Assembly: GCA_019973155.2 (NCBI GenBank)
Contig: BPQB01000104.1
Location: 1 to 64,000 of the forward strand
Length of the DNA stretch: 64,000 bases
Direction of reading: 5' to 3'
Source: Phanerochaete sordida
Lineage: Eukaryota; Basidiomycota; Agaricomycetes; Polyporales; Phanerochaetaceae
Part shown: positions 6,046 to 58,191 of the stretch, piece by piece
Layout of the letters: each line of letters opens with the position of its first letter
How positions within the stretch are numbered: the stretch's first letter is position 1
The notes under the pieces: generated by a model
The model's input: the letters and a program-made list of their open reading frames with translations, nothing else
What the model was told of the DNA's origin: nothing
The model's database searches: none
Translations under genes and position numbers: made by a program

Positions 6046-7624
6046 TCAAGCGAGCTTCGAGGGACAGGGAGAGGAAGGGCCGGGCTGCGACGCCATTGTG
6101 TCGATGTTGGCACCGCTCCATTCCGTAGACGATTCGTCAGTGCCGCCGTACAGCTCCGGGACCTGGCTGTGCTCGAGAGGCTGGCCGATGGTTCCTAGGA
6201 AATCCGACGGGACCCTGAAGCTGACGGAGAACCGAGAGAAATGCTCCGGATCCGAGTTGTCTTCCGCGCGTTCCGACTTGTTGAACTCGCGAAGGTTCAG
6301 CATGAAGCGCTGCACCAGGATTGGGGGCTATATAACGAATGATGAGCCTCTTATATCTCTGCGTGCAGCGACACGACCGACCGTGTTCTGCAGGAATATG
6401 TCCACGAAGTTGCCCTAGGGGGTCGAACGGTCAGCGGCGTTACGGCGGCGGCGGCGGCCCACTCACCCAGGTTTCGTTCGACTCGGAGAACGTAATAATC
6501 TGAGCAACGTTCATAGCAAGAAGAGCGCTACGAGAGTAAGCTCCCGCGCAGTCGCCGCAAGACTACGCTAGACTCACAGAAAGTACAAGGTGCCTGCAAC
6601 CCGGTCCAGTAAGCGAAGATATACACGGGCCAGGCGCGGCGCACGTACCATCGCGCAAAAGTAGTGTCGCGACGGACGTGGTGTGATTTACCTGGCGTGA
6701 CTGCCGCCAGTGCTGAAAGGTTTTGATCCACGTCAAGACCAGGACCATCACGTCTACAGCGATGGCGCAGGACCGCGTGAAGACCACCACTGCGCTCGTC
6801 CTTGTCAGGAAGTCGCAGATTGATATGGTAAGCGGCAGAACATACTCCTGTAATTGCACCCATTTAGCAAATAGCAGAGATGAACACGGACAAAGGAGAC
6901 GTACGCATTAGTCACCTCGTGGGAGAGGTCTGCAGGTACGCTGCAGGTGTTGAAGGGTGCGCCTTCCCAGATAATAGCCGTCCGTGACCATCGAAACTAA
7001 AACGATACTCAGCGACCCACGCTCTCCCCCAGAGCGTCACAGAAGGGACTCACAATATTCGTCCAGACAGGGGCGAACCCAAGCATGAGTATGCAAAAGA
7101 GGAACCAGTATCGCAGCGAGGATCCGCTCCACAAGGCGTATACCCGCAGGCCTGAGAACACTGAGAGGCTGTCACCAAGACGCAGCAAGGAGAGATAGAG
7201 GGGGCACGTACGGGCAACCTGGGCATACGTGAAGAAGAAGAGCAGCTGGCGGACAACGTAGTACGCCACGCAGGTGACCCTCGACGAGAGGAACGGGATC
7301 CAGACCCAGATCTGGCTGAGGACCATAGTCCAGCGTGTGAGGAGAAGTAGGAGTGAGGTGGCCGTGAGTTTGCGCGCCCAGATGCACTGCACCTCACGGC
7401 CGAAGGTAATGGTGTACTCGTACGCAATGAGGCCTGCACACGCGCGTCAGTCAGAGTCCAGCAAGAAACGCGCGATCCACGTACAGAGGATGCTGCAGCT
7501 CTCATATTGGCTCGCTACACTGCGGATGTGAAGAGGATCTGTCAGGACTGAAGTGAAGACCAGCGGGCGGCGCGACTCACAGGAGCTCCAGGGTGTGGAC
7601 TTCGTCCGGGGACACCCCCGACAT
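6046..7624 (-). CDS. DUF6533 multi-pass membrane protein (M1)
   Basis: The spliced product has 344 codons. Exons in transcript order: 7624-7581, 7519-7485, 7433-7212, 7160-7054, 6996-6905, 6847-6846 (2 nt), 6789-6649, 6593-6578, 6527-6467, 6414-6382, 6327-6046. The start begins MSGVSPDEVHTLELL. The DUF6533 core (YEYTITFGREV...W) is followed by hydrophobic helices, FSGLRVYALW, LTW, the QRFMLNLR motif and a hydrophilic tail with FLGTIGQPLEH. Proteins of this family are fungal integral membrane proteins of unknown function. M1 and M3 have the same spliced length and tail, but M1 lacks one intron that M3 has (inside exon 7433-7212). A TATAAT lies 56 nt upstream of the start. The junctions are inferred from signals and paralogue comparison. 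Confidence 0.85.
6846..6847 (-). other. 2-nt micro-exon of M1 (GA)
   Basis: It is flanked by acceptor ..TTACAG and donor GTATGT. It completes the codon left open by exon 6996-6905 (GC+G) and starts ATG with the next exon (A+TG). Both adjoining introns have CTAA or CTGAC branch-like sites. Confidence 0.75.
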
Positions 7625-7679
7625 GGCTTCGTGCGCGAACGTCCGGGAGGGCGGCGAAGAATGCGACGAGGCCGATACT

Positions 7680-7685
7680 ATTATA
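7680..7685 (-). promoter_or_regulatory. TATA-like box of M1
   Basis: TATAAT on the minus strand, 56 nt before the ATG. M3 has the same hexamer at nearly the same distance. Confidence 0.5.
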
Positions 7686-8338
7686 GAGAGAGCCTTCTCA
7701 GGGCCTTCCGGTGATAAACGCGCAGTGTAGATGGACCCACTAGCGTGCGCCCGTGTGCGCCTCGGGGAGGGTGGCCAGGTACCCGAGCGCATGCGTCCGT
7801 GTCGGGGATAAAGGATGGCCCAGAGAGCGGTGCGCACGCAATTGCATGCTGGCGTCAGCAAAAGGATCGCCGCCGATACAAAGGACCCTCGCGGTGGGTG
7901 TCGGTATGGCCGACCTGCGCACATCGGACACTTGTATGACATCGACTGGTGAACGTGGTCGGATGGGAAGACGAGCCGGTACGTCCCAGGCGCGCAGATA
8001 GCGCATGCGAGAGAGGACCATGGGCGTTCGAACTTCGAACAAGGCGGGCAGCGGGGCAAGTAGGTGATCAATAGCGAAGCGGAGTCTTTCCATCCCGAGA
8101 ATGGCTTCTCTAGCACAGCTTGGCGATCACCAGGGTGTAGTGTACTGCGCGGAGACGCCACAAAGCCTCAGGCCACAGGGATCGCTGTGTCACAGTGCAG
8201 GCGGAGATTTCGCCGCCCGAAAAGCTGAGTTCTTCTGCTTCAAATGTCATGGGCTTGGGCCTTGGGCGATTCGTATGAGCTTCTTCCATTCAATTGTATG
8301 AGCATCGGGTCGTACAAATACAACATTACCAACGCTCG
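7686..8338. other. Intergenic stretch between M1 and the MDR reductase
   Basis: Overlapping open frames occur on both strands in GC-rich sequence, but none shows a domain or a paralogue in the window. It holds the upstream region of M1 and the 3' flank of the reductase. Confidence 0.4.
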
Positions 8339-9599
8339 CTACGCATCGAACTGCAAGTCCACCACGATCTTCTCCCCGCTGGCCTTGTTCATCCGGAGTA
8401 GCTCCAGGCCCTCGTTAACGCGGTCGAGCACGCTTCCCTCCTGCATCAGACGCACGGGGTTCGGGCGTATCTCGCCGCGCTCGAGCAGCCGCGGGAGGAT
8501 GACGGGCACGATGTTCTCGCGTGAGAACGCGTCGCCGTGCAGCTGGAACGTGTAGATTGGGAGCAGCTGTACGTTCTTGCCCGCGAAGAGTGCGTCGAGC
8601 CACGGCGGGAACGTGAAGTGCATCGCGCTCTCGGGCGCGTTCGTCACGCTGTCGCCGTCCTTGAATGGCGCAAGGATCGCGAGGCGTGTCGGCGCGCCCG
8701 ACGGAGCGCCGCTGGACTCAAGAATCGCGCTCAGAAGCGTCAGGCTCGAGCGCGCCGCGATAGGGTCTGCGGCGATGGCGAAGCGGCCGTGAGGGGTGGC
8801 GCCGACGCTGGTGCGGATCTGCGCGACTACGTCCGGCGCATGGTAGTCGAAGGTTTCGGTCGCGCCGAGGGTTCGGATGAAGGCGTGGTGACGGCTCGAG
8901 GCGACGGCGAAGATAGTCGTGAAACCCGCGATGCGCAGGGCTTGGACGAGGAACTGGCCCGCGGAAGAGCCGGCTCCGTAGACGAGCACGGGAGCGGAGA
9001 GGTCTACGGGCGCGCGTTCGGGGATGGCTGAGGACGGAACAAGGGATGGAGGGACGGGCAGCGCGAGGTTGGGGCTGCCGAATACAGTGTAGATTGCGGT
9101 GGTGTAGTTGTCTGTGATGGATGCTGCTTCGTGCAGCTCAACAGACTCCGGGATCTAAGCCAGGGGCTGTCAGGAAGGAAGTGCTTAGCGTACATGGGCG
9201 GTTTGACCGACCTTCGCAACTTGGACTCGCTGAACTAGAGTGTACTCTTGTGCAGCCTTGTTCTTCGTGTCTGGGAAGTTGTAGGCAGTAACCTTCACGC
9301 AAGTTAGAATGACAGAAAGTCTGCGAAGCAAACGGAACACGCACCCTGTCCCCTTCCTTCAAATCCTCGACGTTCTCCCCAACAGCCTCCACATATCCCG
9401 CACTCGCGAATCCAACCACGCGCGGGTAGTCGCCCTCGGAGAGCGCAAAGCCCGTGTCGAGCTGGTACTCGTCAAAGGGGATGAGCGTCGCGTATCGCAC
9501 GTGTATAAGGACTTCGTCAGGCCCTGGCGTCGGCGTCGGCAGGTCGATGACCTTGAGCGACCCGACGGCGGTGATGGCGACGGCGCGGTGCGTAGACAT
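8339..9599 (-). CDS. Medium-chain dehydrogenase/reductase (GroES-like, enoyl-reductase type)
   Basis: Exons 9599-9345, 9292-9212 and 9154-8339 join in phase 0 to 383 codons. The N-terminal GroES-like half starts MSTHRAVAITAVGSLKVIDL and has the usual VGFASAGYVEAVGENV segment. The Rossmann half has the VLVYGAGSSAGQFLVQAL nucleotide-binding loop and ends in EKIVVDLQF. The set of structural-zinc cysteines typical of alcohol dehydrogenases is not visible, so it fits the enoyl- or quinone-reductase branch of the superfamily. The product is probably a cytosolic NADPH-dependent reductase; its substrate is unknown. It looks intact, in contrast to the PTGR-type reductases further right. Its neighbours do not indicate a biosynthetic cluster. 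Confidence 0.85.
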
Positions 9600-9719
9600 G
9601 ACAGGAAGAGTCGAGTGGCGATATCGTGTCAGGAGCCCTCGCCTCCAGCTTTATGGCTTTCAGCTGACTGTGCACAGCTCGTTCGAAAGTGCTAGAGTCT
9701 CGCGTCATCGTCGCACTCT

Positions 9720-10130
9720 GAGAGAATCGCCCCGTTTCAGTCTTTGCTTCACAAGGCCCGGCTGTAACATGACATACCGTTCGTGTGAGAGACTTCGCAT
9801 CCCATTTCACGGAGACAACGGAGACATCCTGTCAGCCGGCCAGCTGCGAACGTTTTCAGGACCAAGGGTCTATCGACGCGACTCCGGGGAGGAGAGAGTC
9901 TGCCGACGCGTACGAGGGATGCGCAGGGCAGCGCAGGGCAGATTTCCATACTGATGACGGCTGTCAGTTGTGGTGGTGTGACTGCAAAACGAGGGAGCAG
10001 GGTTGTCCGATTGAATGCACGTAACGTAGCAGTAGCGGAGGCCCAAGTCGGAGATGAGAGTCAGGACCAAGTGTGCATCTGCGAAGCGCGCGAGGGCAGG
10101 CCTCTTGCGTTCCACGGCCATATGATTAAG
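9720..10130. repeat. Duplicated 3' flank of a BTB gene
   Basis: This non-coding stretch downstream of the BTB gene at 10405 resembles 17165-17510 downstream of the BTB gene at 17707. Matching landmarks are CAGTCT..GCT.CACAA, a shared GTCTATCGACGCGAC/GTCCATCGAAGCGAC segment and GAGGCCC.AGT..AGATGA.AGTCAGGACCAAG. I infer a co-duplicated flank. The rest of 9600-10404 shows nothing recognisable. Confidence 0.55.
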
Positions 10131-21349: not shown

Positions 21350-22971
21350 ATGCCCAACTCGAGGGCTGCAAGGTCCCTACTGGAAATCTTGTGCGTATTT
21401 CGTTATCACCGAAGGGTGTGCATTCTAACATGTCTTTGTTGGCCTTTCAGCGCGACTGGTGCAACCGTAGTTCGACTGCGTATGATCCTCCTACACCTCA
21501 CGAATAAGTTCACAAGCTGATGAGTAGCCCTATACTCATCAGCACTCGTCGTCTATGAATACGCCGTGACGATTGACCAGGAGATTATCGCGGCGTGGAG
21601 GCGAAACTGTACAATGGCTTCCCTCATCTTGTTGAGCAGCAGGTGGCTCATGATCATCGGGCCTGTTCTCGGCATTGTTCCTGTGTCATCACAAGCAGGG
21701 TGTGAGTTCAGTTTTTTGGAAGCGCATATTCCATGTGGGTGACTCACCTGTTCACCAGGCGTGCATGTGGGCGCATTCTGGTCCTGCAGAATCTCAATAG
21801 TCTTCCGATAACTTAGCTGCCAGACGATATGGGCCCTGGGTATCTTGGTGGCTGTACTGAATCAGACTGTAGTAACGTGTGAGTCCCTCAGTCGCATATA
21901 AACTGCGCAAGCTTGATTTTGAGCAGTGTTCTCGGCCCTGCGTGTATACGCTATTCTAATGCATGGACGCCGACGCTATGTCGTGCCTACGATTGTCGTC
22001 TTCTTCGGTGTTATACCTATCGGAGCAGATATCGCAAGTATCTCGTCCGGACAACGTTTCAACAAAGCGCAGCCTCACATGTCTACAGATCGCATGGTTG
22101 CATACCGGTCAGCTATACCTCCACGCTAGATGCAACCAGAAGACTGAGCTTTCGAGCAGCCTATCCAACAGGTAGTCATATACCATATCGTATCCCCATT
22201 CTGCTTCTCATCGTGCTGCTACAGGTGTACGTATACTATATCTATTTCACTTGAAATGATCTTATGTGGGAGCACTACGCAGTGCTATTACTGACTAGGG
22301 TCAGTTCGATCGCCCTAGATGCTCTTGTCCTGGCCACGACATGGGCAGCGTCTTACCGCCATTTTCGAGAGATGAGACGATTGAAGATACGTTCATCAAT
22401 TACCACCATAATTCTGCGGGATGGTATGTGTCTAGTTTTTACGGTTCTCACTTGTAAAGTAGCTCACATATGCTCGGGTTACGTTCTAGGAACACTGCTC
22501 TTCATGTAATTGTGTCTGCGTGACTTTCTCATCTTGAAGCTCACGCCCAATGCTTGCAGAGCTTTGCTTTCACAAAACATCCTCCAGCTCTCGACATACG
22601 GCACAGGTCCTCCCCTAGTGGTAGCTCTCCTCCTTGATACCGCTACTCCCATCTGATAATATGTGCAGGGAGGTAGCTTGCCTGATTTTATTGAGTGGTT
22701 TGTAAGGCGTGTATTCAGAATCCGCATGCCGCACAACGACTCAAATCTCCTGCTCTAGCCGCCGTTTCTGGTGCAGCGTTTTATGCTGCACCTGCGGCAG
22801 AATTGCCAGGGCTCTTCTAGAGGCAGCATAGCAGCAGATCCGTTGGGTCTCGGCACTTCGCTCAACTTCAGAGCATCGTCGGTCTTCCTCGGAAATATTG
22901 GGGAGCCCCTTGAATACGGGCGAACGGAAGACTTGGAGAACGACGTGAATGAGGAATGGACTGGCGAATGA
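21350..22971 (+). CDS. DUF6533 multi-pass membrane protein (M2)
   Basis: Exons 21350-21390, 21451-21479, 21543-21699, 21817-21878, 21927-22033, 22089-22171, 22225-22226, 22283-22423, 22490-22505, 22560-22617, 22669-22701 and 22759-22971 give 313 codons. The core reads VVYEYAVTIDQEI...W, then FSALRVYAIL, ATTWAASYRHFREMRR, QRFMLHLR and the tail motif FLGNIGEPLEYG. The intron after 22033 begins GCAAGT, a GC donor with otherwise perfect consensus. The 2-nt exon is GT, giving TTG (Leu) instead of the ATG seen in most copies. M2 converges tail-to-tail with M3. It is the shortest of the family because of a shorter C-terminal tail. Function is unknown. Confidence 0.82.
22225..22226 (+). other. 2-nt micro-exon of M2 (GT)
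   Basis: It lies between acceptor GCTACAG and donor GTACGT. AG+G and T+TG give Arg-Leu, which keeps the frame into the 141-nt exon. Confidence 0.75.
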
Positions 22972-23643: not shown

Positions 23644-25315
23644 TCAAGCGGCCCCCGAGTGAGTGGAAGAGGAGGGGCTTCGCTCAGAGCCATACATATC
23701 CATGTTTGCCGAAACCCACTCGTTGTCGATGTCGCCGTCGTCTTCGCACAGCTCCGGAAGCTGACCGTGGTCGAGAGGCTGCCCGATGTTCCCCATGAAT
23801 CCCGACGGGACCCTGAAGCTGACAGAAAACCGAGAGAAATGCTCGAAGTCTGAGTTGCCCTCTGCGCTCTCTGCGCTGTTGAACTCGCGGAGGTTGAGCA
23901 TAAAGCGCTGCACAAGAATCGGCGGCTGTAGCACATAATTTCAGTATCGGGTCACGCGAGGAGGGCTGGGACTGACAGTGTTCTGAAGGAAGAGGTTCGC
24001 AAAGTTTCCCTGAAGATTGTCAGCACGCTTGGCGTGCAGGGCCTCAAGTTGCTCACCCAAGTTTCATTCGCCTCCGAGAACGTTATCACCTGCGCAATGT
24101 TCATGGCTAGAAGTGCGCTGGGAGATGTCATATCAGTGGCGCGCCCGGTTAGAACCTCGCGCTGTACATACAGAAAATATAGAGTGCCTGAGCCCTATTG
24201 AGCTTATAACGCAGTGGATGAAAAGCAGTGTTCGCCTACCATCTCGCAACAGCAGAGTCGCGACAGACGAGGCATTGTGAACTTGGCGCGACTGCCTCCA
24301 ATGCTGAAATGTCCTGATCCATGTCAGCACCAAGACCATGGCGTCCACGGCGATAGCACAGGTCCTCGTGAAGACCACCACTGTCCTCAGGTATGTCAGC
24401 GTGCCGTCGTCAGAAGAAGCTACGCAGCGCACGCACTCCTGAGAGCGCGAGTCAGTCAGCATCTTGTGGACACGTGCAGAACGAGTCAACCTACGCGTTG
24501 ACGACATTGAGGGGGAGATCAGCAGGGACGCTGCATGTGTAGTAAGGCGCGCCGGTCCAGCTGATAGTCGTCCGCGACCATCTGAACTACAGAGCGCTAT
24601 CAGCCATCCGGCCTCGCCTCTGCATCGGAAGAGCGCGGCTTACAACGTTGGTCCAGATGGGGACAAAGCCCAGCATGAGAATGCAGAACAAATGGAGATA
24701 GCGGTAAGGCGAGCCATTCCAGAGCGCGCACACGCGCAGCCCAGAAAACACTGCGGAGCGGTTCAGCGAGGGAACTCCCGTCCTAGCTTCGTGGAACTCA
24801 CAGGCGATCTGGGCATACGTGGAGAACAAGAGGAGCTCGCGCAGGACGTAGTACACCGCGCAGGTGGTCCTGTAGATGATCAGCGCGACGCCAATCTACA
24901 TGGCCGCCATCCTCCTGAAGGAATCCACGTGAGCACCACACAGAGATGCGCAAGGTGCAGACTGCCTCACACCTGGATGACAGAAACGGTATCCAGACCA
25001 GGACCTGGCTGAGGACCATGGTCCAGCGGATAGAGAGGAGTAGCAGCGACGTCGCCGAGAGCTTGCGCATCCAGATGCAGCGCACCTCTCGGCCGAACGT
25101 TATCGCGTATTCGTACGCGACAAGACCTGCATCGCAAGTGGGTCAGCGTAGGAAGCCGGTGTCGCTGGACTTGACATCTTACAGAGTATGCTGCAGTTTA
25201 TGTACTGGCTCGCCACGCTAGTGTGCGAGCTGGTCAGCAGGAGGTCATAGTCGTGGGAGGTCGGCACTCACAACAGCTCAAGGGTGTGGATGTCGTCTGA
25301 CGATGCGTCTGCCAT
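23644..25315 (-). CDS. DUF6533 multi-pass membrane protein (M3)
   Basis: Exons in order: 25315-25272, 25217-25183, 25126-24973, 24869-24802, 24750-24644, 24586-24495, 24438-24437 (2 nt), 24380-24240, 24187-24172, 24117-24057, 24009-23977, 23925-23644. They total 344 codons, the same as M1. The start reads MADASSDDIHTLELL; the core is YEYAITFGREVRCIW, then FSGLRVCALW, VLTWIRTFQHWR, QRFMLNLREFN and a tail with FMGNIGQPLDHG. The two introns beside the 2-nt exon both contain CTGAC branch-like sites. Its closest relative in the window is M1 (6046-7624), which lies 17 kb away in the same orientation and lacks the intron between 24973 and 24869. Confidence 0.85.
24437..24438 (-). other. 2-nt micro-exon of M3 (GA)
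   Basis: Acceptor CTCTCAG and donor GTGCGT flank it. GC+G gives Ala and A+TG gives Met. Confidence 0.75.
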
Positions 25316-28878: not shown

Positions 28879-30512
28879 ATGTCCCAGCTTTCCGCAGCGG
28901 ACGTCTATGCCAGGTACGTGCCCTGTCCTGCGAAACGTTCCGGCATATCGTCTGACTTCCGACTCCGATATACAGGCTGGTCAATGATTATATCGCTCAC
29001 TGCCAAGTCGGTATGGTTCAACCTCAGTACAATGACCTCGCGTATCGACTGGAACCCGTTAGCACTCGCCGTCTACGAATACCTGGTGACGATTGACCAA
29101 GAGATCTCCATGGTGTGGAAGCGCAAGATCACGGCCGCCTCAGTTCTGCTCTTGGCCAGCAGATCGCTTATGGTGCTCGACCCTATATTCGAGGTCATTC
29201 CAGTCTCTTCACAGGCAAGGTGTGCGTAGACTGCATTTTCTGCACAGAATGCGCCTACCTGACGGGCGCAATGGCCGTCAGATGTATGGCTAAGCCCTCG
29301 TACGAGCTGTGGTACTGCCTGTTGATGCTACATACGCCACAGCTGCCAGGCAGGACTGTTTCTGAGCGACATCACGTTCGCCTTCAATCAGATCGTAGTA
29401 GCCTGTAGGTCTGTGCCTTATATTTGCGCTGCAAAGCTCTGAATGTGCCCCAGTGTTCTCAGCTCTGCGCGTATATGCAATATCCCAGCAGGTGCAGAAG
29501 AAGAAGATCATCTCTGGACTTGTCTTTGGTCTCAGCATAATCCCCCTCGCGACGAATATCGTGAGTATCATATCCGCGATTAGATGCGTTCATGCGCAGT
29601 CTCATGTCTGCATAGTTCAATTGGTCGCGCACTACAATCGTCTGGCAGCCAGACTCGGGAGGATGCGCCGTGATGAGCGCGCTTTCAGAGGACCTGAATA
29701 ACCGGTGAGCACCCATCGCACGTGTCCGCTAGTCTCGCTCTGACCGCAATCGCAGGAGTGCGTATGCAGCTGTTGCACCGGAGTCATCTAACGACGTGCA
29801 AGACAGTGCTGCTGCTGACGAGAAGCAGCGCGATTGTCATGGATGTCGTCGTCGTGGCCATGACATGGGCGAATTCGTTCCGGCATTTTCGGGAGATGCG
29901 ACGCTTGAAGCTGCACTCTTCCATTACGGCCGTACTACTCCGAGATGGTGCGTTCTCCACCAGGCTCTTCATTGGTTCATTGAATGACTTACCCGATATC
30001 GTAGGAACACTGTACTTCATGTAAGCGAGAGAGCGAGACAGACTTTCAGCGAAGTGTACTAACCATTACAGAGCCCTCCTTGCTATCAATGTAGCACAGT
30101 GCCTGACTTTCAACACGTCGAGCAACATAGTCAGTCGTTCAGCATTTCATTGCCCCCAATCTCTGACGACGTCTACCCAGTCAAACTACGTCCAGCCCTT
30201 CCTCCAGTTCATGGTGAATATGCATCGTTCACCGGATGTCTTGCTGAACGCTTATCAGACCCCATCCTATAGCCCTCCGTACTCGTACAGCGCTTCATGC
30301 TCAACCTGCGGCAGCTCAGCGAGCGCGCCGATGAAAGCAGGGCGAGCACCGGACCGTCGGCATCCCGCTTCTCCCTGCACTTCAGAGTCCCGTCGGATTT
30401 CCTCGGGAATCTTGGGCAGCCGTTGGAGCATGGGCTGGCAGAGCACGCAGATGAGGATGTCAGCGGGGATGAGTTTAGCGGTTCCGGGCGAGAGACTCTC
30501 TCCGTGATATAG
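28879..30512 (+). CDS. DUF6533 multi-pass membrane protein (M4)
   Basis: Exons 28879-28913, 28976-29010, 29063-29219, 29343-29404, 29454-29560, 29616-29704, 29756-29757, 29807-29947, 30005-30020, 30072-30129, 30181-30213 and 30273-30512 give 324 codons. The start reads MSQLSAADVYARLVNDYIAH. The core is VYEYLVTIDQEISMVWKRK, then FSALRVYAIS, MTWANSFRHFREMRR, VQRFMLNLRQLSER and the tail FLGNLGQPLEHG. The intron after the 2-nt exon has a perfect CTAAC branch site. M4 is more divergent from M5-M7 and M9 than they are from each other, and its 5' flank is not the duplicated block flank. It is tandem with M5. Confidence 0.85.
29756..29757 (+). other. 2-nt micro-exon of M4 (GA)
   Basis: Acceptor ATCGCAG and donor GTGCGT flank it. 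CG+G gives Arg and A+TG gives Met. Confidence 0.75.
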
Positions 30513-31496: not shown

Positions 31497-33147
31497 ATGT
31501 CCCAGCTCTCCGCAGAGGCTGCTCAGAGCGTGTAAGTGTCGGTTTTTTGCGATGCTCTCGGGATGTTTTCTGACGCCTTGATTGAACATTACACGCAGTC
31601 TCGTGAATAACTGCGTAGCAGTCTCTCAACTCGGTATAGTTGGGCATGCGTACAAAAGCGGTCTATCTGCTCACTACCTTTGGCTGTGGCAGCCCTTTGT
31701 GTCTATGAATATGTCATTACATCTGATCAAGAAATAGCCGCAGTGTGGAGGCGCAGACGTACAGCGGCTTCGCTTCTGTTGCTAAGTAGCAGATGGATTA
31801 TGATAGTGGGTCAAGCAATATTCTTCGCTCCAGTGTCATCTTGGACAAGGTGTTAGTCAACGCCACAGTGTGGACGAGCTCAACAAGCTAACAAATGAAT
31901 TTCTGTTCCTAGACGTTCTCTAACCACTCTCAGGATCTCTATTATCCTCTTACCGGTGCCGCTATTATATGAATTATAGCTGCCGAGCCAGCCTTATTCT
32001 ACAAGATCTCGCATTCGCCGGCGGTCAGGTCGTGATGACCTGTGGGTTCCGTTGCCATACCTAACTTACAACGTCCTGATGTTAAACCAGCATTTTCGGC
32101 TTTGCGCGTGCATGCTATCCTGCTGCAGGAGCGGGGAAATTACGCCATTCCTATGATTGTCGTCATCCTTGGCACTGTCCCACTTGCAACGAATCTTGTA
32201 AGCACCGTGGTTCGACCACATGTCAGTCCCACGCTCACCTGCGCCTACACACAGTTTGGTTGGACACGTTCGAGGATTGTGTGGATAGGAGAATTAGGCT
32301 GCGAGCCGCTACACACGTATTCTGAACAGCTAAATAATCAGTAGGAATTCGTTTCACATGAGTTCATGAGGCCGTTTCTCATCTCTGTTTTAGGAGTACG
32401 TCCGCCATCTATGAATGAAGCAGCCTCAAAGAGCTATCAGCATAGTGCTTTTGCTCACACGAATTAGCGCTATCGCTCTGGACGGTATTGTCTTGGCGGC
32501 AACATGGGCGAAGTCCTTTCAGCACTTCCGCGAGATGAGACGCCTAAAGCTCAACTCTTCCGTCACCAATATATTACTCCGGGATGGTATGTGTTCAGGC
32601 TACGTACAGTTCCCTCGAACGCGCTCAGACGTTGGGATGGCGTTAGGCACACTTTACTTTGCGTAAGGGAAGCCTTCATGACAAGAATCCCAGGCTTATC
32701 ATTACAGAGCTCTTCTCGCTATCAACATAGCGCAAATCCTAAAGTTCAGCAACAGCTTTTTCTATGTAGCTCTGACCAATTATGTCGAGATTCTCAAAGT
32801 GCTAACTATGTGCGCATAGTTGGAATATATGACAATCATACTGCAATCCCTGGTACGGAACGTATTACCTATGAGGATTGCATTGCTCCTGAATACCTCT
32901 CCTCTAGCCCATCGTGTTGATACAACGCTTTATGCTGAACTTGCGGCAAATTGATCCTCAAGCTACCAAAAGCAGCGCAGCCGCGGGCCTGTCGGGCTCC
33001 CGTCTCAGTTTCAGGATCCCATCGGGCTTCCTCGGCAATCTTGGGGAGCCTCTGGAGCACGGAGCGGGTGAAGAGCTGGAGGACGAGACCGAGGAAGAAA
33101 ATCAGAGCGGCCAGGCACAGGAGGAACACGCTTCGAACTGGATGTGA
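31497..33147 (+). CDS. DUF6533 multi-pass membrane protein (M5)
   Basis: Exons 31497-31531, 31599-31633, 31693-31849, 31980-32041, 32091-32197, 32255-32340, 32394-32395, 32446-32586, 32647-32662, 32708-32765, 32820-32852 and 32908-33147 give 323 codons. The start is MSQLSAEAAQSV; the core is VYEYVITSDQEIAAVWRRRR, then LLLLSSRWIMIVGQ, FSALRVHAILLQER, LAATWAKSFQHFREMRR, QRFMLNLRQI and a tail with FLGNLGEPLEHG and a Glu-rich end. All donors are GT, although that of exon 3 (GTGTTA) is weaker than in M9. First gene of the four-copy block, with degenerate reductase P1 downstream on the other strand. Confidence 0.87.
32394..32395 (+). other. 2-nt micro-exon of M5 (GA)
   Basis: The introns on either side are 53 nt (32341-32393) and 50 nt (32396-32445), both of normal size. 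CA+G gives Gln and A+TG gives Met. Confidence 0.78.
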
Positions 33148-39379: not shown

Positions 39380-41012
39380 ATGTCTCAGCTCCCCGCTGCG
39401 GCTGCTCAGAGCACGTAAGTTTCAGTATCTTGTGATGCTCCCGGCATGTCTTCTAACGGCTTGATTGAACATTACTCCCAGGCTTGTTGCTGACTCCATA
39501 TCTTTCTCTCTACTCGGTATAGTTGGACATGCGTATGAACCCGATCCGCCCGCTCACTACCTTTGCCCATGGCAGCCCTCACCTTCTATGAATATGCCAT
39601 GACATTTGATCAAGAAATAGCAGCAGTGTGGAGTCGCAGGCGTACAGCGGCTTCGCTCCTGCTGCTAAGTAGCAGATGGATCATGGTACTGGGTCAAGCA
39701 ACAAACTTTATTCCACCGGCATCCGGGACAAGGTGTGAGTCAACGGTAGAGGGCGGACGGGCTCAGCAAGCTAATAGCATTTCTGTCTCTAGACCTGTCT
39801 CTAGCCACTCTCATGATCTTTTTTAATCATCTACCGGCGTCGCTGTCGTATGAATCACAGCTGTCGAGCTAGCATTGCTCTGTGCGATCTTGCATTCGCC
39901 GGCGGTCAGATCGTGTTAACCGGTGAGTTCCTTTGCCATACCTGGCCCACAAGGTCCGTTGATGTTGAACCAGTGTTTTCGGCTTTGCGCGTACATGCTA
40001 TCCTACTGCAGGAGCGGGGAAGATACGCCATTCCCATGGCTGTCGTCGTCCTCGGCACTGTCCCACTTGCAACAAATCTTGTAAGCATTCTGTTTTGACC
40101 CCATGTCAGTCCCACACTCAACTTCGTCCACACACAGTTTGGTTGGATACGTTCGAGGATTGTGTGGATAGAAGGATCAGGCTGCGAGCCCATACACGCA
40201 TTCCCAGAGCAGCTGAATAATCAGTAGGAATTGGTTTCACATGAGCTCATGAGGCCCTTTCTCATCGCCGTTTTAGGAGTACGTCCGACATCTGCGCTCC
40301 ATAATAAGCTTACGCAAGTATGCAACACAGTGCTCTTGCTCACGCGGATCAGTGCTATTGCCATGGACGTGATCGTCTTGGCAGCAACATGGGCACAATC
40401 TTTTCAGCACTTCCGCGAGATGAGACGCTTCAATCTCAACTCTTCCGTTACAACTATATTACTCAGGGATGGTACGTGTTTAGCCTGCTTTAGCATGGAC
40501 ATCTTTGCGAAGTAATGCTGTGACGTTGCTAGGAGCAGTTTACTTTATGTAAGCGAGACCAGGCTGGAATGAATGTTCGACTTATCATCACAGAGCTCTT
40601 CTCGCTATGAACATACTTCAAGTCCTAATAGACTGGAATCTACCCACCTCTGTAACTCTGTCCAAATCATTCTTGGATTATCAAGCTTCTGACTATGTGC
40701 ACATAGGCGGATTTTGTGGATGCCATACTGCAGTCCATGGTAACATATGCATGAACGTACACGTAGCGATTGCACGGATGCCAACCACTTCTTCTCTAGC
40801 CCCTTGTACTGGTGCAACGCTTCATGCTGAACCTACGGCAAGTCAACCGGCAAGCCATAGAAAGCAGCGCAGCTGCGGGTCCTCCGGGCTCCCGTCTCAG
40901 CTTCAGGATCCCATCGGGCTTCCTCGGAAATCTTGGGGAGCCCCTAGAGCACGGAGAAGCTGAAGTGCCGGAGGATCATGCCAATGAGGAAGAGATGCAC
41001 CCCTCAAACTAG
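39380..41012 (+). CDS. DUF6533 multi-pass membrane protein (M6)
   Basis: Exons 39380-39414, 39482-39516, 39576-39732, 39861-39922, 39974-40080, 40138-40223, 40277-40278, 40331-40471, 40533-40548, 40594-40651, 40707-40739 and 40800-41012 give 314 codons. The start is MSQLPAAAAQST; the core is FYEYAMTFDQEIAAVWSRRR, then FSALRVHAILLQER, LAATWAQSFQHFREMRR, QRFMLNLRQVN and the tail FLGNLGEPLEHG. Without the 2-nt exon no in-frame acceptor exists before the 141-nt exon, so M6 is a strong test of the micro-exon model. Degenerate reductase P2 lies downstream on the opposite strand. Confidence 0.85.
40277..40278 (+). other. 2-nt micro-exon of M6 (GA)
   Basis: Acceptor GTTTTAG and donor GTACGT. Introns of 53 nt (40224-40276) and 52 nt (40279-40330) flank it. 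Confidence 0.78.
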
Positions 41013-48751: not shown

Positions 48752-50421
48752 ATGTCTCAGCTCTCCGCAGCGGCTACTCAGATCCTGTAAGTGTGAGCTT
48801 CGTGTGATGCTCTCCGGATGTCTTCTGACGCTTTGGTTGAACATCACACGCAGTCTCACTTCTGACTACCTAGCTATCTCTCTACTCGGTATAGTTGGGA
48901 CATGCGTACGAAAGCGATCTTTCGCTCACTACCTTTGCCTATGGCAGCCCTGTGCGTCTATGAGTATGCCCTGACATTTGATCAAGAAATAGCCGCAGTG
49001 TGGAGGCGCAGACGTACAGCGGCTTCGCTCTTATTGCTACACAGCAGGTGGATTATGGTACTGGGTCAAGCAGTAATATTTGTTCCAGTGACATCCTGGA
49101 CAAGGCGTGAGTCAACGCCGCAGTGCAGACGGGCTGAACAAGCTAATAAATGAATTCTGTCACTAGACGTGTCTCTAGCCACTCTCAGAATCTGTTTGAT
49201 TCTCTTACCGGCCTCGCTATCATATGAATTACAGCTGCCGAGTTAGCCTTGTTCTGAACGATCTCGCAGTCGCCGGCGGTCAGGTCGTGATAACCTGTGA
49301 GCTCCTTCGTCAATTCTGGCCCACAAATGCCTAATGTTGAACCAGCATTTTCGGCTTTGCGCGTGCATGCCATCCTACTGCAGGGGCGGGGTAAGTACGC
49401 CATTCCTATGGCTGTCGTCGTCCTCGGCACTGTCCCACTTGCAACAAATCTTGTGAGCATTTTGTTTCGACCATGTGTTAGTCCCACGCGCAGCCTCAGC
49501 TATCCACAGTTTGGTTGGATCCGTACTAGAATTGTGTGGATAGAAGGGTCATATTGCACACCCGTACGCATGATTTCAGTCCAACTAGATAACCAGTAGG
49601 AGTCCCTTTCACACCAGATCGCCGCAGGCTATTTCTCATCGCTTGTTCAGGAGTACGTCTGCAACCTACACATTAGACAGTCTCAAGGAAGTAGTAGCAT
49701 AGTGGTCTTGCTCACGCGAATCAGTGCTATCGCCCTGGACGCTATCGTCCTAACAGCAACGTGGGCAAAGTCCTTTCAGCACTTCTGCGAGATAAGACGC
49801 CTCAATCTCAAGTTTACCGTTACAGCTGTTTTACTCCGGGATGGTACGTATCCAAGCTACATAACGGTTCTCTCGATGGCCAGGCGGGACATCGAACGTG
49901 ATCAGCCGCTGAAATGGTACTAGGAACATTCTACTTTGCGTAAGGGAGACCATCATAACAAGAATCCTTGGCTGATCATTACAGAGCTCTTCTCGTTATG
50001 AACGTAATTCAAATTCTGACGTACAACAACGACGATTTCTCAGTAACTCCGTCCAGATTATCTTGATTTCCTCAACCTGCTGACTATGTGCACATAGACG
50101 GACTATATGATCAGCATACTGCAATCTCTGGTAGCGAATGTATTACCTCCCACGTATTGCCTTGTTTTCTAAACGCCTCTCCTCTAGCCCCTTGTGTTGG
50201 TACAGCGCTTCATGCTGAACCTGCGGCATCTCAACCGGCAAGCTGTTGATAGCAGCGCAGCAGAGGGCCTACCTGGTTCACGTCTTAGCTTCAGAATTCC
50301 ATTGGACTTCCTCGGAAATCTTGGGGAGCCTCTGGAGCACGGATCAGCTGAAGAGCCGGACGATGACGCCAATGAGGAGGAACATCGGGGTTCAACGCAG
50401 GAGACACACGCCTCGAACTAG
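48752..50421 (+). CDS. DUF6533 multi-pass membrane protein (M7)
   Basis: Exons 48752-48786, 48854-48888, 48948-49104, 49235-49296, 49346-49452, 49510-49595, 49651-49652, 49703-49843, 49924-49939, 49985-50042, 50098-50130 and 50188-50421 give 321 codons. The start is MSQLSAAATQIL; the core is VYEYALTFDQEIAAVWRRRR, then FSALRVHAILLQGR, LTATWAKSFQHFCEIRR, QRFMLNLRHLN and the tail FLGNLGEPLEHG. The donor after exon 3 reads AAG|GCGTGAG where M6 and M9 have GTGTGAG. The GT two bases later would shift the frame into a stop, so this copy needs a GC donor or has lost splicing there. No reductase remnant follows; the block is truncated near 50690. Confidence 0.75.
49651..49652 (+). other. 2-nt micro-exon of M7 (GA)
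   Basis: Acceptor TTGTTCAG and donor GTACGT. CA+G gives Gln and A+TG gives Met. Confidence 0.75.
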
Positions 50422-52050: not shown

Positions 52051-52052
52051 AC

Positions 52053-53749
52053 CTAAACTACGTCTGCCGACGACACAACAGACCCCAGCGTGGAAGTGCC
52101 CGCGGACGACTCGCTCTCATCACGCCCCTCTCCCTCTCCCTCGACGCCGCACTCGCCGCCGCCCTCCATCCCCCGCGCCGACCCCTCACCCTCGAGCGGC
52201 TCCCCGATATTCCCGAGGAAATCCGTCGGGACGCGGAAGTGCAGCGAGAAGCGCGAGAGGCGCTGCGCGTCGCTCGCCGCGGCGTCGCGCGGCGCGCCGA
52301 GCTGGCGCAGGTTGAGCATGAAGCGCTGTACGAGGAGCGGCGGCTGGCGGGCGCGGGCGGTCAGATGTGTGCGCGCTCGTGTGGGGCGGCGGGCGTACTA
52401 GAGATTGTACGAAGACGTTCGCGTAGACGGCGCCCTGAGGACGGAGCGTCAGGATGGGCGGAGAGGAAGGGTTGGATGGCGCACCCGGTTCAGGCCGTTC
52501 GCGTAGGTGAGGAGCTCGAGGACGTTCATCGCGAGGAGCGCTCTGCGGAGACGACTATCAGTGCCCTAAACGTGCTAACGTACAACGTCACAGAGGTGAT
52601 GCTCACATAAAGTACAGCGTTCCTGGTGCGCACTCGAGGTTAGACGTGCTGCGTGGAAGAACCTGAGTGCGGAAGCTCACCATCGCGAAGCAAGACTGCA
52701 GACACAGACCCGCGGAGGCCAAGCCTGCGCATCGCCCGGAACTGGCTCAGCGACTTCGCCCACGTGAGGGCAAGCACGAGCACGTCGGACGCGATGACGC
52801 AGCACCTCGTGAGGTAGACGACTGGGCTCGAGAAGTGTCGTGAGTTGACGGCGCGAGCGCAGAAGTGCTCGACGTACAGCTGGGGGCCAGGTGAGCGGCA
52901 GATCGTAGAAGTTATGCCGGTACGTACAGGTTTCCGACATTATCCGTCAGGTCCGTCCATTCCTCGCATGATGAGAGAACGGGCAAACGCACGTATTCAA
53001 ACGAGGTTTGCGTCCAGCCGTACTGGGCGCACATCAGAACACTTCGCACGTGGCGGGGCAAATGAGTACACTCACGATGTTCGTCCCCACCGGCACCAGC
53101 CCAAGCACGAGGACTGCGACGGAGAACGGCCATCGCGCCGGCGAGCCTTGCCAGAGTGCGTAGATCCGGAGGGTCGAGAACACTGCGAGCGGGCGGTCAG
53201 ACGGGCGGCGCGCAGGCGAGGAACATGCTGACATGCGATGTTGGCCGTGACTGCCATGTAGAAGAGCTCGACAAATACATAGATTTGTCTGCATCTGCGG
53301 CGCCCTCGTCCGCTCAGGGAAGAGCCCTACATGAACCAGCGCAGCGGACATCTAAGATGCATGTAAATACGTGTCGACCATGGGAAGGAGCAGACGGCTT
53401 ACACGCTTTCGGACCGACGTGCGCGAAGATTACGATGGAATTGAGGACCATGAGCAACCGCGTGCTGAGGAGGAGCAGCGAAGTGGCCGTGAACTTCCTC
53501 CGCCATCCCAATGCGATCTCCTGGTCGAGTGTGATTACATACTCGTAGACGACCAGGCCTGATGATACGCCGTGGGTCTGGTCGCATACGCACTGCGTGA
53601 GGAGGGCCTACATAGCAAGGCGCAGTACACATATTCAGTCGTTTGGCTAGAAGTACAGAATGATGTCAGCTGCTGACGTGTGAAAACTGTAAACGCAGAG
53701 CGTACAGGTCGTACAGCTCCTATGCGATACCGTAGTCTGGCTGAGACAT
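52053..53749 (-). CDS. DUF6533 multi-pass membrane protein (M8)
   Basis: Exons in order: 53749-53731, 53686-53657, 53558-53405, 53294-53233, 53182-53076, 53022-52928, 52879-52878 (2 nt), 52821-52681, 52622-52607, 52542-52485, 52434-52399, 52343-52053; 336 codons. The start is MSQPDY; the core is VVYEYVITLDQEIALGWRRK, then FSTLRIYALW, ALTWAKSLSQFRAMRR, VQRFMLNLRQLG and a tail with FLGNIGEPLEG followed by a Gly/Glu/Ser-rich end. If exon 1 had the 35-nt length of its relatives it would contain a TAG; the shorter 19-nt exon 1 and 30-nt exon 2 given here avoid this and keep phase, but that part is the least certain. The 2-nt exon is CT, giving TTC (Phe). It is the most divergent and GC-rich copy, on the opposite strand to its neighbours. 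Confidence 0.78.
52878..52879 (-). other. 2-nt micro-exon of M8 (CT)
   Basis: Acceptor GCCCCCAG and donor GTACGT. CT+C gives Leu and T+TC gives Phe. The bases differ from all other copies while length and phase are kept. Confidence 0.75.
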
Positions 53750-53815: not shown

Positions 53816-53823
53816 ATATATAG
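53816..53823 (-). promoter_or_regulatory. TATA box of M8
   Basis: TATATA-containing run on the minus strand, roughly 70 nt before the ATG. Confidence 0.4.
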
Positions 53824-53829
53824 CGAAAA

Positions 53830-54555
53830 AGATGAGTAATTCGCTCGCCGCAGACCCATGTGTGCGCAGTGTGCGGCAGTTAGCATCCTTCCTGTGACCC
53901 CTACGGGTTTTGACCGCGCCCCATGACAGCGAGGACGTGGGAAGTGAAGCTTGCGCAGCGCGCTCCTCGCAAAAATTGGCCAAAAGACGTAGGTTCGGTT
54001 GCTATTCGGGCGTCGGGACGGACATACCTGCCGATGCCTCCGGGGAGTTCGGAACTCCGCGTCGGCGAGACAGGAATCGGCGACGCATCGGTGCACAGTA
54101 TGGATGGAATGCCCCCTGTATGCAAATCGATCAGCAACGTGCACGAAGCTGAGGGCAGTGCAGGATGGAGTCTCTTCCCTGGTGGTCCGCTCGACCTGTG
54201 GGCCTCAGACTGCCGAGAGAAAAATCACATTGAGCTGGTTAAAAATGTACCTCAGAGAGCACGGGACCATGATAGGGCCGTGGTCGTGACACCGCTGCGC
54301 AAGAGTACGAACACGTCACGCACACCATTTGGCGCATGCGCTTCGTCTGTCGGAGCAGCGTAGGACCTACGAGGGCCTGGGGTGATCGGAGGATACGTGG
54401 GTGTGCTCACAGAAGGCATAGGGCGGAGGTCGAGAAGAAAACAAATTTGGGACATCGTGGAGGGAAGGATACCATCGACCGGCCGACCGACCGTTGCGCG
54501 GCCCAGAGCGCCACGAAGTGCCCGGCTATCACCGCTAGGCCGTTTGCGTCCTAGT
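53830..54555. other. Intergenic stretch 5' of M8, no gene recognised
   Basis: A plus frame of 146 codons at 53923-54363 has no motif and no paralogue in the window. Confidence 0.35.
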
Positions 54556-54559
54556 ACGA

Positions 54560-55599
54560 GCCTCGCGAACAATCATCCTCCCTTGGGCACGTCGCAGTCG
54601 CGGCAGCACCAAGACGTGCCCGACTTTCCCTCCCATCTGCGCTCCGAGATACGATCCTGGGCTGTTGGTTATCTCGTACGTGCGCCTCTCTCTTTCCTTG
54701 TTCGGTGCGGAAAGCTAATCATGTGCCAGATGCTGCACCATTTTTCTCACATAGCTGCGTCAGTATATCTGTCAGATCTGGATGTGGTGCGAAGAGCCAC
54801 CCCTCGGGCGTCTGCCCGCGCCCGTCGCGTAGCTGGGAGTGGATGAGATGGTTTTCCATGGACGTCTGTGGCTCTGCCTGGACGGGCTTTTCATTGGGAG
54901 ATCTGAATGTGGTACTGCCTTGCGACACGTCATATGCCTCAGGCCGTGGCGCGCAGAGGCCGCTAGGAGAGACGTTCGCATTGAGTTGTCGCTTCCATTC
55001 TGTCGCATCTGCTTCTGACCCGCAGCATTGCCACCGTTTCCGTAGTACCTAATCAGCTTCGCGAGGCAGATGCAAAACCTGTCGCCTTTCTAGTACGCGG
55101 AAGCTACGCCTGTATCAGATCGTTGACTCCTCCGCGCAAAGGATCTGCTGTGCGCGTGGCGTGTATCTGCGGCGTCGATTTCCCTCACATTCTAATTAGC
55201 GGGCGACCTACCCATTGGGAAGATAGCTGACTTTATGCGATAGGCTTTGACGAGCATGCGATAGGCTTTGACGAGGCGGCTACAGCTGTGAGGTCTCGCG
55301 CAGCTTACGCACGGTAGCGCAGATCGTAGGGGCATCGACATCTGATGGCGACTTCCGAGAACGCCTTCGACGTGTTGTTCTACCTCGACATGCATGCGGT
55401 ACATTGGATATGTACGTGGTAACGTTTGCTCTGCTCCATGCCCGATCAAGATACCATCTTGCCTCGTGCTCCCTTCTATTATCCGTTCACCGTCCACTTC
55501 GGTGAGTGGGCTATACCTGCCGGAGTTGCATGAGCTCGTCTGGCAGATGTATGATGCCATGCGAGCCGTGTGTATCCTGGTGTAGCCTCTGTTGAGTCA
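54560..55599 (+). repeat. Decayed duplicated stretch 5' of block 4
   Basis: Counterpart of 37300-38139. It also contains a perfect 21-bp tandem duplication (TGCGATAGGCTTTGACGAG core) at about 55236-55276 that the other copy lacks. Confidence 0.5.
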
Positions 55600-56494
55600 C
55601 GGGCTTCATTCACGCCCAACATCACCTCATACTATAACAACGGGGCGTGCTGGACGTATCAATACGCCCAGGCTGGGCCAGTAGCGTCCCCTCAGGCAAT
55701 ATCAAGATGATACCTCCTATCTCACGCCCATCATGATCCTGTAGGCAATCGAATAATAGGATGCAAGCTGTCAGATTGTGCGCCGTACATCATGGTATTA
55801 GCTTCCATTACGGTGAGAGATCCCACTGCGCAGGTTCTGAGCTCTCATCCCGACACAGGTGCGCTGGCACCTCAATCACAATGCCACTCACTAGTCAGCA
55901 CGTGGAGTGTTCTACATCCAATGCACAATCTGCATCTTCGCAAGAGATTCCTACTACCGCTCCGTCGAAATCGTGCGATTGAGATGATACCATAGAAGTT
56001 GACCGTTTGATTCAGAGTTTTGGCATTATGACAGGTGAATGGTACATTGAATAGACCCGCAAGCGATTGATATCGACCCAAGCGTCCTACGACTGTTCTT
56101 GAAGATGGCAGGAGGAGAACAAACGGCCATGCACGCTGAGACGCTTACGCCACGTCGTACGTCTTGCGCACTGCGATGTATCTTACCTTCCTCAGCACCT
56201 CACCCAAGATAGCAAACAAGGTGGGCCCATATAGCTTGCTGGGAAGATGTTGAGATTAATCTGGTCGTGTTGGAAGGTCTGGACAGAGAAGCGAGGACTC
56301 TGTATACCTCGTATGAGCCTTCGGAAAGCTTGTACCCTCTTTCGTCACTGTCAGGTCAGTGCAAAGGACCCAGGTATCTCATCGCGCCTTCTAGGAAGGA
56401 TTTCTAGAAACTGTCTGCGACACTGACTCGGAAGATGTTATCCTTCCGGTCATCAGGCAACTGCGTGTAATGCAGTGCTAGCTCGCTTGAGCCC
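55600..56494 (+). repeat. Duplicated block, 5' flank, copy 4
   Basis: Same landmarks as copies 1-3. It gives the uninterrupted MITE target site around 55950. Confidence 0.7.
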
Positions 56495-56500
56495 TATAAG
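56495..56500 (+). promoter_or_regulatory. TATA-like box of M9
   Basis: TATAAG after TTGAGCCC, 46 nt before the ATG. Confidence 0.5.
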
Positions 56501-56545
56501 TACTCCGTAGGCCACGCCACGCTTTGTACATCACACCTCGCAATC

Positions 56546-58191
56546 ATGTCCCAAGTCTCCGCAGCCATTGCTCAGAACTTGTAAGTGTCGGTTTCCTGTG
56601 ATGCTCTCGGCATGTCTTCTAACGCCTTGATTGAATGTTGCACGCAGTCTCGTGAATAACTACATAGATGTCTCTCAACTCGGTATAGTTGGACATGACT
56701 ACGAAAGCGGACCGCCCGCTCACTACCATTGCCCATGGCAGCCCTCTGTGCCTATGAATATGTCATGACATTTGATCAAGAAATAGCCACAGTGTGGAGG
56801 CGCAAAACCACAGCGGCTTCGCTCCTGTTGCTGAGTAGCAGATGGATTATGGTACTGGGTCAAGCACTAGCTTTTGTTCCAGAAACATCCTTGACAAGGT
56901 GTGAGTCAACGCCACAGTGCAGACGGGCTCAACAAGCTAATACATGAATTCTGTCACTAGACTTGTCTCTAGCCACTCCTAGGATCTGCTTTATTCTCTT
57001 ACCGGCGTCGCTATCGTATGATTTACAGCTGCCGAGCCAGCCTCATTCTACAAGATCTCGGATTCGCCGGCGGTCAGGTCGTGATGACCTGTGAGTTCCG
57101 TTGCCATACCTAGCTCCCAAAGCTCTGATCTTGGACCAGCATTTTCGGCTTTGCGCGTGCATGCTATTCTACTGCAGGAGCGTGGAAAATACGCCATTCC
57201 TATGGTTGTCGTCATCCTCGGCACTGTCCCACTTGCAACAAATCTCGTAAGCACAGCATTTGGACCACATGTCAGTCCCACGCTCAGCTTCACCTACACA
57301 CAGTTTGGCTGGATACGTTCAGAGGTTGTGTGGGAAAGCGGATCAGTTTGCGACACCATATACACGTTTTCTGAGCAACTGGATAAAACGTAGGAGTGCG
57401 TTTCACATAGGGTCATTAGGCTATTTCTTATCACTGTTTCAGGAGTACGTCCGCAATCTACGCATGAAGCAGTCTCAAGGAGCTAGTAGCATAGTGCTCT
57501 TGCTCACTCGAATCAGTGCTATCGCCCTGGACGCTATTGTCTTGGCAGCAACATGGGCGAAGTCCTTTCGGCACTTCCGCGAGATGCGACGGGTAAACTT
57601 CAATTCTTCCGTTACCAATGTATTACTCCGGGATGGTGTGTGTTCAGGCTACATAATGCCTCTCTTGGACGTACTCAGCCGTTGGGATGGTTGTAGGAAC
57701 ACTTTACTTTGTGTAAGGGAGGCCTTCATGACGAGAATCCTCGGCTGATCATCACAGAGCTCTTCTCGCTATCAACATAATTCAAATCCTGACGTTCAGC
57801 AACAACCTCTTCTTCGTAACTCCGTCCAATCGTTCGAAGATTCTCAAAGTGCTGACTATGTACACATAGTCGGACTATATGACCTTCATATTGCAATCCC
57901 TGGCAGCGAATTTATTACCTACGCGGATCGCATCGTTTCTAAATACTTCTCCTCTAGCCCATTGTGTTGGTACAGCGCTTTATGCTGAACTTGAGACAGA
58001 TCAATCGGCAAGCAGGCGAGAGCAGCGCAGGAGCGCGCCTACCGGGCTCCCGTCTCAGCTTCAGGGTCCCATCGAGCTTCCTTGGAAATCTTGGGGAGCC
58101 TCTGGAGCACGGAATACTCGAAGAGCCGGAGGACTACGTGGGCGAGGAGGGGCATAGTGAACCGGCACAGGAGGAGCACACCTCAGACTAG
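56546..58191 (+). CDS. DUF6533 multi-pass membrane protein (M9)
   Basis: Exons 56546-56580, 56648-56682, 56742-56898, 57029-57090, 57140-57246, 57304-57389, 57443-57444, 57495-57635, 57697-57712, 57758-57815, 57870-57902 and 57958-58191 give 321 codons. The start is MSQVSAAIAQNL; the core is AYEYVMTFDQEIATVWRRKT, then FSALRVHAILLQER, LAATWAKSFRHFREMRR, QRFMLNLRQIN and the tail FLGNLGEPLEHG. The donor after 57902 reads CTG|GCAGCG where M5 has GTACGG and M7 GTAGCG. Read-through of that intron gives a different, frame-shifted C-terminus lacking the QRFMLNLR tail. The gene is otherwise intact, with PTGR-type pseudogene P3 downstream. Confidence 0.8.
57443..57444 (+). other. 2-nt micro-exon of M9 (GA)
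   Basis: Acceptor CTGTTTCAG and donor GTACGT. AC+G gives Thr and A+TG gives Met. Introns of 53 and 50 nt flank it. Confidence 0.78.

Follow-up and report, generated by a model that had tools for sequence, protein, structure and literature searches.

How do nine paralogous genes of Phanerochaete sordida carry their reading frame across a junction where the upstream exon ends in phase 2 and the next acceptor common to all of them needs phase 1? The genes lie in the first 64 kb of contig BPQB01000104.1 (C104) of a genome of 40.8 Mb in 222 contigs, and these 64,000 nucleotides (nt) are here called the window. The exon upstream of the junction, which ends in phase 2, is named exon B and the downstream one exon C. 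The junction very probably contains a constitutive exon of two nucleotides set between two short U2-type introns, which would be removed in two steps. A 2-nt exon, as put forward in a preliminary description of the window, is supported, being the sole parse found that works in every copy tested. The block AG-NN-GT stands at each of the nine positions given there, on the minus strand in copies 6846, 24437 and 52878. The parts of each copy are the following.

6905..6996, minus strand: copy 6846, exon B, 92 nt, ending in phase 2
6848..6904, minus strand: copy 6846, intron 1, 57 nt, GTACGT...CAG
6846..6847, minus strand: copy 6846, 2-nt exon GA
6790..6845, minus strand: copy 6846, intron 2, 56 nt, GTATGT...CAG
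6649..6789, minus strand: copy 6846, exon C, transmembrane exon, 141 nt
22089..22171, plus strand: copy 22225, exon B, 83 nt, ending in phase 2
22172..22224, plus strand: copy 22225, intron 1, 53 nt, GTAGTC...CAG, weak donor
22225..22226, plus strand: copy 22225, 2-nt exon GT
22227..22282, plus strand: copy 22225, intron 2, 56 nt, GTACGT...CAG
22283..22423, plus strand: copy 22225, exon C, 141 nt
24495..24586, minus strand: copy 24437, exon B, 92 nt, ending in phase 2
24439..24494, minus strand: copy 24437, intron 1, 56 nt, GTAGGT...CAG
24437..24438, minus strand: copy 24437, 2-nt exon GA
24381..24436, minus strand: copy 24437, intron 2, 56 nt, GTGCGT...CAG
24240..24380, minus strand: copy 24437, exon C, 141 nt
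29616..29704, plus strand: copy 29756, exon B, 89 nt, ending in phase 2
29705..29755, plus strand: copy 29756, intron 1, 51 nt, GTGAGC...CAG
29756..29757, plus strand: copy 29756, 2-nt exon GA
29758..29806, plus strand: copy 29756, intron 2, 49 nt, GTGCGT...CAG
29807..29947, plus strand: copy 29756, exon C, 141 nt
32255..32340, plus strand: copy 32394, exon B, 86 nt, ending in phase 2
32341..32393, plus strand: copy 32394, intron 1, 53 nt, GTAGGA...TAG, weak donor
32394..32395, plus strand: copy 32394, 2-nt exon GA
32396..32445, plus strand: copy 32394, intron 2, 50 nt, GTACGT...TAG
32446..32586, plus strand: copy 32394, exon C, 141 nt
40138..40223, plus strand: copy 40277, exon B, 86 nt, ending in phase 2
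40224..40276, plus strand: copy 40277, intron 1, 53 nt, GTAGGA...TAG, weak donor
40277..40278, plus strand: copy 40277, 2-nt exon GA
40279..40330, plus strand: copy 40277, intron 2, 52 nt, GTACGT...CAG
40331..40471, plus strand: copy 40277, exon C, 141 nt
49510..49595, plus strand: copy 49651, exon B, 86 nt, ending in phase 2
49596..49650, plus strand: copy 49651, intron 1, 55 nt, GTAGGA...CAG, weak donor
49651..49652, plus strand: copy 49651, 2-nt exon GA
49653..49702, plus strand: copy 49651, intron 2, 50 nt, GTACGT...TAG
49703..49843, plus strand: copy 49651, exon C, 141 nt
52928..53022, minus strand: copy 52878, exon B, 95 nt, ending in phase 2
52880..52927, minus strand: copy 52878, intron 1, 48 nt, GTACGT...CAG
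52878..52879, minus strand: copy 52878, 2-nt exon CT
52822..52877, minus strand: copy 52878, intron 2, 56 nt, GTACGT...CAG
52681..52821, minus strand: copy 52878, exon C, 141 nt
57304..57389, plus strand: copy 57443, exon B, 86 nt, ending in phase 2
57390..57442, plus strand: copy 57443, intron 1, 53 nt, GTAGGA...CAG, weak donor
57443..57444, plus strand: copy 57443, 2-nt exon GA
57445..57494, plus strand: copy 57443, intron 2, 50 nt, GTACGT...TAG
57495..57635, plus strand: copy 57443, exon C, 141 nt

Exon B measures 83-95 nt in the nine copies, each time leaving a remainder of two when divided by three, and exon C is 141 nt in 9/9 copies, its first bases being TG in eight and TC in one. The flanking introns are of ordinary short size as described (intron 1 48-57 nt, intron 2 49-56 nt), and the letters of the exon do vary, with GA in seven copies, GT in copy 22225 and CT in copy 52878. 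If the pair were skipped a single intron of 102-115 nt would be needed and the frame would be broken in every copy of the window; with the two bases included the frame is open in 9/9 copies, as checked across the exons around the junction. We infer that the two bases would be present in the mRNA of the nine genes. In copy 22225 the 55-nt intron before exon B (window positions 22034-22088) is apparently a GC-AG intron starting with GCAAGT.

The same junction was looked for in the rest of the genome, which holds 203 candidates for the Pfam family PF20151 (DUF6533), 150 of which were scored, all being matches. The loci examined were 109 of DUF6533 type, i.e. 100 fetched around PF20151 matches and the nine of the window, and a profile seeded with 15 exon C sequences found exon C at the cut-off of 25 bits or above in 73 of them, all 73 sequences being distinct. 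The 2-nt exon is read in 81 of the 109 loci, namely these 73 and eight with a weaker exon C which were read by eye (L010, L013, L014, L021, L032, L040, L044 and L069), and the junction was left unparsed in twelve (L002, L009, L012, L045, L046, L053, L054, L056, L070, L075, L076 and L080). The exon C counted for L031 lies about 1.7 kb from the PF20151 match and may be part of a neighbouring gene. Exon C sequences of the 73 loci have a median pairwise identity of 35% and fall into 39 clusters when grouped at 60% identity; the loci are old, though not independent of one another.

At the junction all 73 loci with exon C carry AG-NN-G[T/C], in strict form in 63, with a looser GT in eight and with a GC donor in two. 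For the strict motif, YAG-N(k)-GTNNGY, every k between 0 and 15 was tried in the 85 bases before exon C, and the counts were compared with 200 dinucleotide shuffles. The motif was found at k=2 in 62/73 loci against 1.8 expected (maximum 5 in 200 shuffles), and other spacings were near expectation except k=6 (12/73 against 1.7 expected), probably an echo of GTACGT overlapping itself. A recursive splice site of zero length (AG/GT) was rejected, since k=0 occurs in 2/73 loci (1.2 expected) against 62/73 at k=2. The strict motif is present in 0/36 windows before exon B, in 0/73 windows after exon C and in 92/3354 random windows of the same loci. Counted by cluster, and leaving out L067, at least one member has it in 35/39 clusters and every member in 30; within several of the 60% clusters the two letters differ and the length is constant. 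The loci with a looser GT or an AAG acceptor (L017, L038, L060, L068, L082, L083, L088 and L090) do not differ from the strict ones in how far the match lies from exon C. In L049 (AC/GCAGGT) and L071 (AC/GCAAGT) a GC donor replaces GT directly after the 2-nt exon.

Locus L067 also has the strict form (CAG/GT/GTAGGT), placed farther upstream of exon C because its intron 2 is long. This intron contains an insert of about 320 bp (1672-1995 of the locus) with perfect inverted repeats of 30 bases at its ends, resembling a miniature inverted-repeat transposable element, and the exon C acceptor lies inside the second arm of the inverted repeat.

A profile search also placed exon B in 39 loci. Of these, 35 have their best-scoring upstream donor in phase 2, three in phase 1 and one in phase 0, and in the four exceptions exon B scores just 6.4, 6.7, 6.8 and 12.9 bits. 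Frame tests were made on the 34 loci that combine a phase-2 donor with an intron 1 shorter than 75 nt: the frame stays open in 34/34 when the two bases are included, and skipping is out of frame by construction, because phase 2 meets phase 1. Between the invariant Cys and the junction 17 aligned core models are free of gaps. In the 35 phase-2 models intron 1 measures 47-67 nt (with one outlier of 95 nt, L057) and intron 2 48-68 nt, the lengths differing in their remainder by three; the preceding introns, in 27 models, measure 49-67 nt. A branch-like site CTNAY is found 6-35 nt before the AG in 65/72 first introns (shuffled mean 19.2), mostly at 10-16 nt, and in 57/72 second introns (shuffled mean 16.6). 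An origin of the pair by tandem intron duplication was considered and rejected, the similarity of introns 1 and 2 being 0.34 within a locus and 0.30 between loci (35 loci).

What the preliminary description said of the protein needs some qualification. It took all nine genes for DUF6533 paralogues; eight are among the 150 scored PF20151 matches, and copy 22225 is a paralogue by its exons only. The gene model of copy 6846 belongs to PF20151 with 43.3 bits against a gathering cut-off of 24.1, and has no match up to E 1 among the sequences of solved structures. Its best 19-residue hydrophobic window begins at the codon containing the second base, in agreement with the proposed start of a hydrophobic helix. 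That this codon always encodes Met, Leu or Phe is not true of the genome as a whole, where Ser, Tyr, Cys, Trp or Thr occurs in 10/72 loci, and the predominance of the three residues is largely due to exon C starting with T, which is codon position 2. As to selection on the exon, it is clear for length and phase and weak for the two letters, apart from the missing G.

Seven loci (L003, L006, L035, L047, L050, L055 and L078) have an exon of 8 nt at the same place and with the same phases (2+6). All 7/7 models are open and alignable, the introns measuring 50-55 and 46-60 nt, and the loci are similar across the junction, L006 reading C-HPMISSE-TANR-LAIAW and L047 C-TIASPRH-TAIR-YATAW; for L003 a 14-nt reading is likewise in frame by manual count. 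Locus L066 has a single intron of 61 nt, and the homologue of the 8-nt exon continues straight into exon C, intron 2 being absent. It reads C-HAASSLT-SAIH-IAVAW and is equal in length to L006. With these eight bases fused to exon C, the genome itself indicates that the piece is coding. Losing intron 2 by way of a spliced message would leave such a structure, and no other genomic evidence speaks as strongly for the presence of the piece in mRNA. No other copy seen has lost the intron that follows the 8-nt microexon.

Other relatives have a different junction. It is uninterrupted in the seven RTWA[IV] loci (L004, L016, L020, L048, L052, L062 and L089), where the loop is shorter and not alignable base by base. 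At this place L072 seems to have a single intron and a different loop, and it was left out of the counts. Three loci with long open frames (L007, L051 and L031) were considered as possible fused copies and rejected, as the upstream frame is not the exon.

The sites and phases, their conservation, the length variant and the fused relative are visible in the sequence itself. A number of observations nevertheless weigh against a 2-nt exon. All sequence comes from one genome, as genomic DNA alone. The strict motif is absent from 10/73 loci, and AAG precedes the 2-nt exon in 5/72; in the 8-nt group the acceptor is AAG in 4/7 first and 4/7 second introns. AG-NN-GT by itself, present at the junction in 70/73 loci, occurs in 559/3375 random windows of 57 bases (17%) and in 4/39 and 10/73 control windows of the same comparison, so that the looser form alone is weak evidence. 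Fusion to a neighbouring exon is seen for the 8-nt form only and in none of the loci for the 2-nt exon itself. Among the four closest window copies identity is highest in exon C (0.84), and exon B (0.71) is not above intron 1 (0.77), hence identity alone would not prove the boundary of exon B. Two more points favour a single long intron (102-115 nt in the window), in which AG-NN-GT would be an intronic element and the frame would be rescued by another donor or acceptor: the intron-1 donor is weak in five window copies (GTAGGA in four and GTAGTC in one), and 17/34 loci have at least one alternative, an in-frame acceptor in 14 and a phase-1 donor in seven. We regard this as most unlikely, given that the other 17/34 loci have no such alternative under the thresholds used, that the alternatives have no constant place among the 34 loci, that each half of the interval has a donor, mostly a branch-like site, an acceptor and the size of a normal intron, and that L066 has the 8-nt homologue continuous with exon C.

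Two successive introns at one place with a probable two-step removal would also be expected of a stwintron, known from fungi (PMC8469720), where the donor of one intron is interrupted by an internal intron and no exon is left. Such an arrangement is scarcely probable here: intron 2 keeps a complete six-base donor 3' of the NN, the D1,2 type requires a G at the end of exon B (present in 3/35) and URWGY directly after the internal AG, and complete removal would join phase 2 to phase 1, out of frame. That intron 2 (or 1) is normally retained as coding sequence beside one ordinary intron is hardly conceivable. In some copies (e.g. 57443) intron 2 can be read without a stop in the frame of exon C, but this frame differs from the one entering from exon B, and the relation between the frames of intron 2 and exon C varies among copies, with stops in 22225 and 32394. 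Retention is in frame and open in just 3/34 loci for intron 1, 2/34 for intron 2 and 0/34 for both, and an alignment of the four closest window copies has six gap columns in each intron but none in exons B and C. A regulatory switch might be added to the 2-nt exon, with skipping or retention giving a frameshifted mRNA and the efficiency of inclusion setting the protein level across the family. In its favour are the frame broken by every skip, the report that introns flanking plant microexons are more detained (PMC8831610) and the switch described for a 20-nt microexon in Trichoderma (PMC11121469). Donor scores, however, average 7.33 for intron 2 and 7.31 for the next intron, which served to train the score, and this equality fits constitutive use; we hold the switch to be improbable.

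The product of each gene is a multi-pass membrane protein of the DUF6533 family, exon B encoding the loop before a transmembrane helix and exon C running on into the helix. The first of the two bases would complete the last codon of exon B, and the second would open the codon finished by exon C. The exon is expected to be constitutive because its omission always shifts the frame. With just two bases between them, acceptor and donor are unlikely to be bound simultaneously, so the introns are most likely removed successively, by intron definition, and stepwise splicing is a reasonable expectation for these genes. Removal of intron 1 would bring a complete donor to the new exon end and removal of intron 2 a complete acceptor, either order leading to the same mRNA.

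The letters of the exon are free with one restriction. In 72 loci the second base is T in 38, C in 17, A in 17 and G in none, and it is also not G in L067 or in the eight loci read by eye; nor is G the last base of any of the seven 8-nt exons. Unlike the 2-nt exon, the exon before the next intron in these genes does end in G. A G followed by the T which starts exon C would mostly give valine, a residue found at the next three codons in 14, 4 and 11 of 72 loci; so either valine is barred at this one residue or a G beside the donor is avoided. Avoidance of the G is the reading towards which the 8-nt exons lean, valine being no issue in them. A pyrimidine followed by A, which would make a new YAG, is found in 1/21 pyrimidine starts against 16/51 purine starts (Fisher p 0.016, uncorrected for kinship), and L021, with CA, runs counter to this rarity. 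It is tentatively possible, though doubtful, that the whole expanded, receptor-like family uses an obligate and ordered two-step device, in which intron 1 has to be removed first and the lack of G weakens the exon side of the intron-2 donor, avoiding competition between the sites. If this were true, exon length and letters would be set by the mechanics of the spliceosome and not by the protein, and one splicing checkpoint would be common to the family.

Exons of this kind are already known, since constitutive exons of 1 nt have been described in plants and, since 2026, in Fusarium. A close likeness is the P450 CYP621A of Fusarium, fungal too, for which a single-nucleotide exon between two introns was deduced from conflicting phases and the conserved block AG-N-GT, AGGGT being present in all 24 genes (PMC12940212). 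That study adds transcript reads and an intronless relative, whereas the present work has genomic sequence alone; it describes one nucleotide in one gene, here there are two nucleotides of variable letters in 81 paralogous loci and an 8-nt variant, and its base is always G, the opposite of the copies seen here, which never have G beside the donor. An 8-nt exon in Phanerochaete is also cited in that paper, as are exons of 2-5 bp in Arabidopsis, Drosophila and humans. In land plants APC11 and VPS55 have single-nucleotide exons (PMC4674806, PMC8831610), likewise flanked by two introns and there absent from annotations. For APC11 the identity of the base is reported as unimportant for splicing, intronless copies carry it within one exon (PMC4674806, PMC8831610), and successive removal of the introns is favoured (PMC4674806); these are however plant genes with one nucleotide, in one or two families of few copies each. 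The stwintrons of ascomycetes are similar in having two short U2 introns removed consecutively at one place (PMC8469720), but they leave no exon, while here two coding bases stay. The P450 genes of Phanerochaete chrysosporium are basidiomycete as well, a large family with short introns and tiny coding exons; in the passages of PMC1184071 on these genes the shortest exon stated is 6 bp and microexons occur across families with no one shared position. A 2-nt exon fixed at one place through some 80 paralogues was not found in open-access PubMed Central (PMC) text, and the terms "2-nt" and "2 nt" are absent from the main text of PMC8831610. Against this literature, what looks new is the paralogue-wide scale, a length that is fixed while the letters are free, and a second base that is never G.

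DUF6533 is described as specific to basidiomycetes (PMC10949477). In P. sordida DUF6533-type exons lie in large clusters on contigs C2, C54, C58, C85, C86 and C104, and C85 has seven exon C matches but none of the scored PF20151 matches; a scan of viral contigs found no relative. SNB1 (Snowball) of Coprinopsis cinerea belongs to the same Pfam family and has seven predicted transmembrane helices (PMC10949477). The word microexon is absent from the main text of that paper, and the passages of open-access PMC text which match the name DUF6533 hold nothing on gene structure.

Gene finders usually require longer exons (PMC8831610), and members of the family are therefore likely to be mis-modelled from the junction onward. 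As fruiting-body patterning in Coprinopsis requires snb1 (PMC10949477), correct DUF6533 proteins matter. The 81 natural copies, which differ in their two bases, introns and splice sites, make up a panel for how the spliceosome handles an exon that is too small for recognition as an exon, in a group of organisms with laboratory models.

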